From an archaeon (GTDB lineage Archaea; Thermoplasmatota; Thermoplasmata; Methanomassiliicoccales; Methanomethylophilaceae), in the NCBI GenBank assembly GCA_024399215.1, contig JAKSHT010000004.1, positions 1-46,635 of the forward strand: 46,635 nucleotides of DNA, written 5' to 3'. The translations under genes were made by a program, and so were the position numbers. The notes beneath the pieces were generated by a model. The model worked only from the letters and a program-made list of their open reading frames with translations, was not told where the DNA came from and searched no databases. Of this stretch, positions 39,273 to 40,949 are shown in pieces; the stretch's first letter is position 1, and every line of letters begins with the position of its first letter.

Positions 39273-40949
39273 ATGCAGGATATTGAGAACCTTATCAAGA
39301 AATACGCGTTGCAGAATGCTGTATTTTTTAGGGGCAAGGCTGACCCTAAGTCGGTTATTGGAAAGGTATTAGGTAAATGTCCTGAATGCAGAGGCAGGGT
39401 TCCAGAAATAACAGAGATAATCAACACCGTCGTTGCCAGTGTAAATTCAATGAATATTGAGTCACAAAGGAAGGCTTTAGAGGAAATAGATCCGTCTATG
39501 TTGGTTAGGGAGAAGAAGGGGAGGAGATGTGACCTTCCTGATCTGGATGGTGTGGATAAAAAAGTTATAATGAGGATTGCTCCTGGGCCATCAGGACCGC
39601 TTCATATAGGGCACACTCGTGTATCAATTCTTAATGATGAATATGTTAAAAGATACAAAGGAACTCTTGTCTGTAGATTTGAGGATACAAATCCTGAAAA
39701 GATTGAACCTGACGCATATGATATGATTTCTGAAGACATTGAATGGCTCGGTGTTAAGGTACATAGAAATATTATTCAGTCAGATAGGTTCGAAATATAT
39801 TATGATTACACGAAAAGACTTATTGAGATGGGATATGGATATGTGTGTACATGTAATGCCGACCACTGAAGAGATCTGAAAGAGAGAAAACTAGCATGTC
39901 CATGTCGCGATCTTTCTGTTGAACAGCAACTTGAAAGATTTGATGAGTTTATGTCTGGTAAATATGGAGAAGGGGAAGCAGTTGCGGTCATTAAAACCGC
40001 GATAGATCATCCAAACCCTGCTGTGAGAGATTTCGTTGCATTAAGGCTTGTTAATCATCCCCATCCGAGAACTGGAACTAAGTATATTGCGTACCCGATG
40101 ATGAATCTGTCAGTCGCTGTTGATGACCACCTCCTGGGAATGACACATGTAATTAGAGGGAAAGATCATTTAAACAATACATTTAGGCAAGAATACATCT
40201 ACAATTACTTTGGCTGGGATAAGCCGGTTTTCTATCATTATGGATTGGTCAATATCACAGATTCCGTTTTAAAAACGTCAGTGATAAAGCAGAGTATAAA
40301 AGAGGGCCTGTATTCAGGTTGGGACGATGTTCGTACAGGTACTGTAAGGGCAATGAAGAGGAGAGGTATTAAGCCAGAGGCAATTAGAAGGTATTGGATA
40401 GAGAGTGGGATTAAGCCAATTGATATTCAATTTTCTTGGGATAATTTATTCGCAATGAATAGAGACATTATTGATGCCGATGCTAACAGATACTTTTTTG
40501 TTCAAGATCCTGTTAAATACAATATAGAAGGAATTGATTCAATTATCGGGAAAGCTCCACTTCATCCTAATTATCCAGAGAGAGGCTATAGAGAGTATGC
40601 AGTCAGGGGATCAAATACAATATTTATCTCATATGAAGATTCAAAAATGTTTGCGGATATGGGCAAGATTAGATTAAAGGACTTATGTAATATTGATTTT
40701 GGAGAGCATGTTAAATATTCAGGATCAGACGCTTCTATTCTAAAAGAGGGTTTTAAAGCAGTTCAATGGGTTGGAGAGGCTTCTACTAGGGCAAAAATAC
40801 TGATGCCAGATGGAACGACTCTTGATGGACTTGTTGAAAATTCTATTCTTGAAGAGAGAGGAGATATTGTACAATTTGAAAGAATTGGATTCGCTAAAAT
40901 TGAGAGTAATGATAAAAATTCATTTGTGGCCATTTTCGCACATCGATGA
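39273..40949 (+). CDS. gltX: Glutamyl-tRNA synthetase, interrupted by an in-frame TGA
   Basis: Archaeal-type class Ib GluRS of about 558 codons. It charges tRNAGlu, and tRNAGln too in archaea that use GatDE. Landmarks: IENLIKKYALQNAVFFRGKADPK, the HIGH motif in APGPSGPLHIGHTR, RFEDTNPEKIEPDAYDMI, YVCTCNADH, then a TGA at 39867-39869 (codon 199), and without any frame change RDLKERKLACPCRDLSVEQQ, YPMMNLSVAVDDHLLGMTHVIRGKDH and GWDDVRTGT. The anticodon-binding beta-barrels follow normally to a TGA stop. The TGA replaces one residue in a helix after the CTC zinc-like motif, possibly a tryptophan. The KMSKS-equivalent reads LKTSVIKQ, where I would expect a sequence near LSTSK. Either sequencing error, nonsense mutation or read-through; the gene is otherwise intact. 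Confidence 0.85.

Follow-up and report, generated by a model that had tools for sequence, protein, structure and literature searches.

Genetic codes of the table 4 type, in which UGA has passed from a stop codon to a tryptophan codon, are recognized by the presence of UGA at many conserved Trp positions and by the disuse of UGA as a terminator. They also call for a tRNA-Trp that can decode UGA, by virtue either of a UCA anticodon or of a CCA anticodon combined with a 4-bp anticodon stem. UGA read-through by a tRNA-Trp of the latter type has been reported in bacteria and eukaryotes (PMC13092985). Archaeal glutamyl-tRNA synthetases (GluRS) are characterized by a catalytic domain, the class I motifs and an anticodon-binding domain, all encoded in one frame. 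The gltX gene described here (39273–40949, forward strand) has each of these features, with a single TGA interrupting the frame. It is located in a window of 46,635 nucleotides, i.e., the whole stretch of DNA that was analyzed, which corresponds to contig C34 of the draft genome of a Methanomethylophilaceae gut methanogen, assembled from metagenome reads (G000; 51 contigs, 655 kb, 79.48% complete, 5.84% contamination, with contigs C44, C46 and C47 consisting of N only). The nearest named relatives of G000 are Methanomethylophilaceae (Methanomassiliicoccales) from animal guts. Its closest relative is a metagenome-assembled genome (MAG) of the same genus from horse faeces (G003; JAKSHS010000003.1, locus L031), with a GluRS protein that is 91% identical (92% for the N-terminal 198 residues). 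Nearly all of G000 and G003 was taken for a genome-wide comparison of open frames. Both genomes are small: G000 has ~0.65 Mb and G003 ~0.75 Mb, at a completeness of 79% and a contamination of 6% in either case. The remaining genomes of the family, which include two from this genus, range from 1.0 to 1.9 Mb. The difference may reflect genome reduction in a gut lineage or merely a shared incompleteness.

The original prediction, made from the sequence alone, described a lone TGA at 39867–39869 (forward strand) in an otherwise continuous GluRS frame, and both the domain matches and the alignment with relatives confirm this. Numbering from the ATG at 39273, the TGA is codon 199. Upstream of it, positions 1–102 of PF00749 are matched; downstream, the match resumes at PF00749 positions 111–312 and is followed by two anticodon-binding domains, without any frame shift, up to the gene's own TGA stop at 40947–40949 (the gene as a whole matches PF00749, PF03950 and PF20974). 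When the protein is read through the TGA, the best solved relative is 3aii_A, matched over 6–560 with an E-value of 2.4e-162. The KMSKS-like segment had been suspected of being altered as well, which turned out to be wrong. The KMSKS equivalent, LKTS at 40269–40280 (forward strand), is the commonest form in this group, being present in 89 out of 107 relatives, while another 12 out of 107 carry LSTS.

Among 109 related gene records, which were drawn from two overlapping collections and are not all independent, the position of the TGA codon is occupied by TGG in 106 cases, by CTG in two and by ATG in one. As the relatives, including G003, carry TGG, G000 differs from them by one G-to-A transition, and the TGG-to-TGA change that was initially listed among the options is supported by an ancestral TGG. 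The occurrence of TGG in sister strains had been named as an observation that would speak against a true stop; TGG was found only in a sister species (G003). The TGA is very probably an isolated G-to-A change in the MAG consensus, due to a sequencing or assembly error or to an unfixed strain variant, with TGG as the codon in the functional gltX. The consensus base would then either be an error or have been picked up from a minor, unfixed variant; the functional gltX of the population would carry TGG at this position, and the organism would use the standard genetic code and make a normal GluRS with Trp. We infer that the base is most likely either incorrect or a variant that has not reached fixation in the population.

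The nature of the assembly is consistent with an error or a minor variant, as G000 is a contaminated draft in which some short contigs seem to stem from a second congener. Specifically, contigs C9, C15, C29–C33, C35, C39 and C41 (loci L119, L125, L142–L147, L151 and L153) repeat stretches of the main contigs with ~71–83% DNA identity, which suggests that sequences of two species of the genus are combined in the assembly. Similar duplicates occur in G003 (C14 and C7 versus C9, ~78–86%). A census of in-frame stops, filtered to drop antisense frames and subjected to flank filters, retained three premature stops in convincing G000 genes: the one in GluRS, one on C38, in a gene for a DUF2111/DUF4443 protein, and one on C30. 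C30 and C38 are short, divergent contigs, and a region of C5 has a further copy, of greater divergence, on C30. The stop on C30 would belong to the minor congener, as would probably the one on C38, and the coverage of this congener is likely poor. Since C30 and C38 also carry premature stops, isolated nonsense substitutions do occur in this assembly. These are single stops (TAG and TAA) near position 2178 of C30 (L143) and near position 2129 of C38 (L150), where G003 has Glu. Nonetheless, the GluRS TGA is situated on a long, 46.6-kb contig of the main species, of which it is the sole such stop, and not on a short contig. Moreover, a change from UGG to UGA is frequent among true nonsense mutations as well. 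A literature search for papers on stops in such metagenome assemblies found none.

A real and recent nonsense mutation, which would leave gltX dead and tRNA-Glu charged by an enzyme missing from the assembly (e.g., a second GluRS), is improbable. The completeness of just 79% leaves room for such an enzyme. However, almost every relative has just one GluRS. The search for a second gltX, proposed with the original prediction, detected no other GluRS in this incomplete assembly, in which the catalytic domain of class Ic synthetases is matched by gltX alone; a second copy is thus rejected for this assembly. gltX is essential, and a genuine nonsense mutation that hit the sole GluRS would be expected to be lethal. 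In the alignment of the G000 and G003 genes, which is ungapped except for three N-terminal residues, pS and pN are 0.493 and 0.037 before the TGA, and 0.467 and 0.053 after it. These values point to strong purifying selection on both sides of the TGA, with the frame kept, and because pN remains far below pS after the TGA too, the sequence downstream of it has not degenerated. The lineage-specific amino-acid changes in GluRS, 22 in G000 versus nine in G003, do give a weak hint of relaxation or of errors, but few substitutions in either lineage affect columns that are invariant among the other relatives. A general pseudogene decay of G000 is rejected as well, with no convincing frameshift among 457 G003 genes read in G000.

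It is still less probable that UGA is read through as Trp by a suppressor or near-cognate tRNA-Trp, yielding full-length GluRS, perhaps at a limited rate. The expected residue at codon 199 is indeed Trp, which is what reading of UGA by a near-cognate tRNA-Trp(CCA) would give, and the read-through reported for the 4-bp anticodon stem offers a precedent. The tRNA-Trp of G003, however, has a CCA anticodon and an intron of 96 bases, and its anticodon stem measures 5 bp rather than the 4 bp linked to the reading of UGA, while the tRNA-Trp gene of G000 is absent from its 79% complete assembly. Furthermore, no tRNA with a UCA anticodon was found in G000 or G003, both of which are incomplete. UGA is also in regular use as a terminator, ending ~37% of the genes in G000 (181 out of 484) and 171 out of 456 in G003. 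Within the window, 12 supported genes end in TGA when GluRS (40949) is counted, some of which overlap their neighbour by 4–40 bp (the underlying list has 13 rows, as the broken GluRS was entered as two pieces). At the positions where G003 has Trp, G000 carries 1146 TGG codons and three TGA codons. Of the latter, two are located at most nine codons from the N-terminus, a region in which the start site is not certain, leaving GluRS as the only Trp-to-TGA site inside an intact, clearly real gene; other conserved Trp positions in intact genes are not TGA. The statements that at least twelve genes in the window stop with TGA, some of them overlapping, and that TGA is not globally reassigned are hence upheld, the latter on a genome-wide scale, and a global reassignment of UGA to Trp is rejected. 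A TGA that is both real and fixed, with an essential GluRS made only by UGA-as-Trp read-through that could limit or regulate its level, is more doubtful again. If it were real and fixed, an essential gene of an archaeon would depend on stop-codon read-through, which would be a striking situation.

A GluRS split into two chains, the second one starting from the ATG at 39951, is very unlikely. A 332-aa open frame does begin at this ATG, but the break falls between two Cys pairs (CTC...CPC), the second of which would be lost with a start at 39951. Additionally, GluRS is a single uninterrupted chain in the nearest relative, and no internal stop is present in the GluRS matches of 60 related genomes. 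Selenocysteine, favored by the codon itself and nothing more, can practically be dismissed, as the relatives have Trp rather than Cys and no match to tRNA-Sec (RF01852) above the gathering cut-off was obtained in the genus, for which four genomes with incomplete assemblies were searched (27–35 bits versus 47, several of these at ordinary tRNA places). The biological oddity hinted at in the original prediction thus finds no counterpart in a UCA-anticodon tRNA, a tRNA-Sec, a second Trp-to-TGA site in an intact gene or an unusual KMSKS motif. Pyrrolysine was also rejected; it concerns UAG and not UGA, and the genus has no PylS above the cut-off. The genomes covered by the PylS search were G000, G001, G002 and G003, while one PylS is present in G014, which belongs to another genus of the same family. 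About one gene in five ends with TAG, which serves as an ordinary terminator.

Altogether, G000 offers no support for reassignment, for selenocysteine or for programmed recoding, and the TGA most likely reflects an error in one base or a minor strain variant rather than a novel mode of decoding. Single in-frame stops in essential genes of MAGs should therefore be checked against the reads before recoding is proposed. Compared to the known systems, the GluRS of G000 resembles the UGA stop-to-Trp codes of the table 4 type in having UGA at a conserved Trp position. It differs from them in that UGA is a normal terminator in G000 and in that only one conserved Trp site in an intact gene is affected. 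Likewise, it resembles 3aii_A in its full-length match and in its catalytic and anticodon-binding domains, whereas the position of the TGA in G000 is occupied by Phe in 3aii_A and by Trp in this order.
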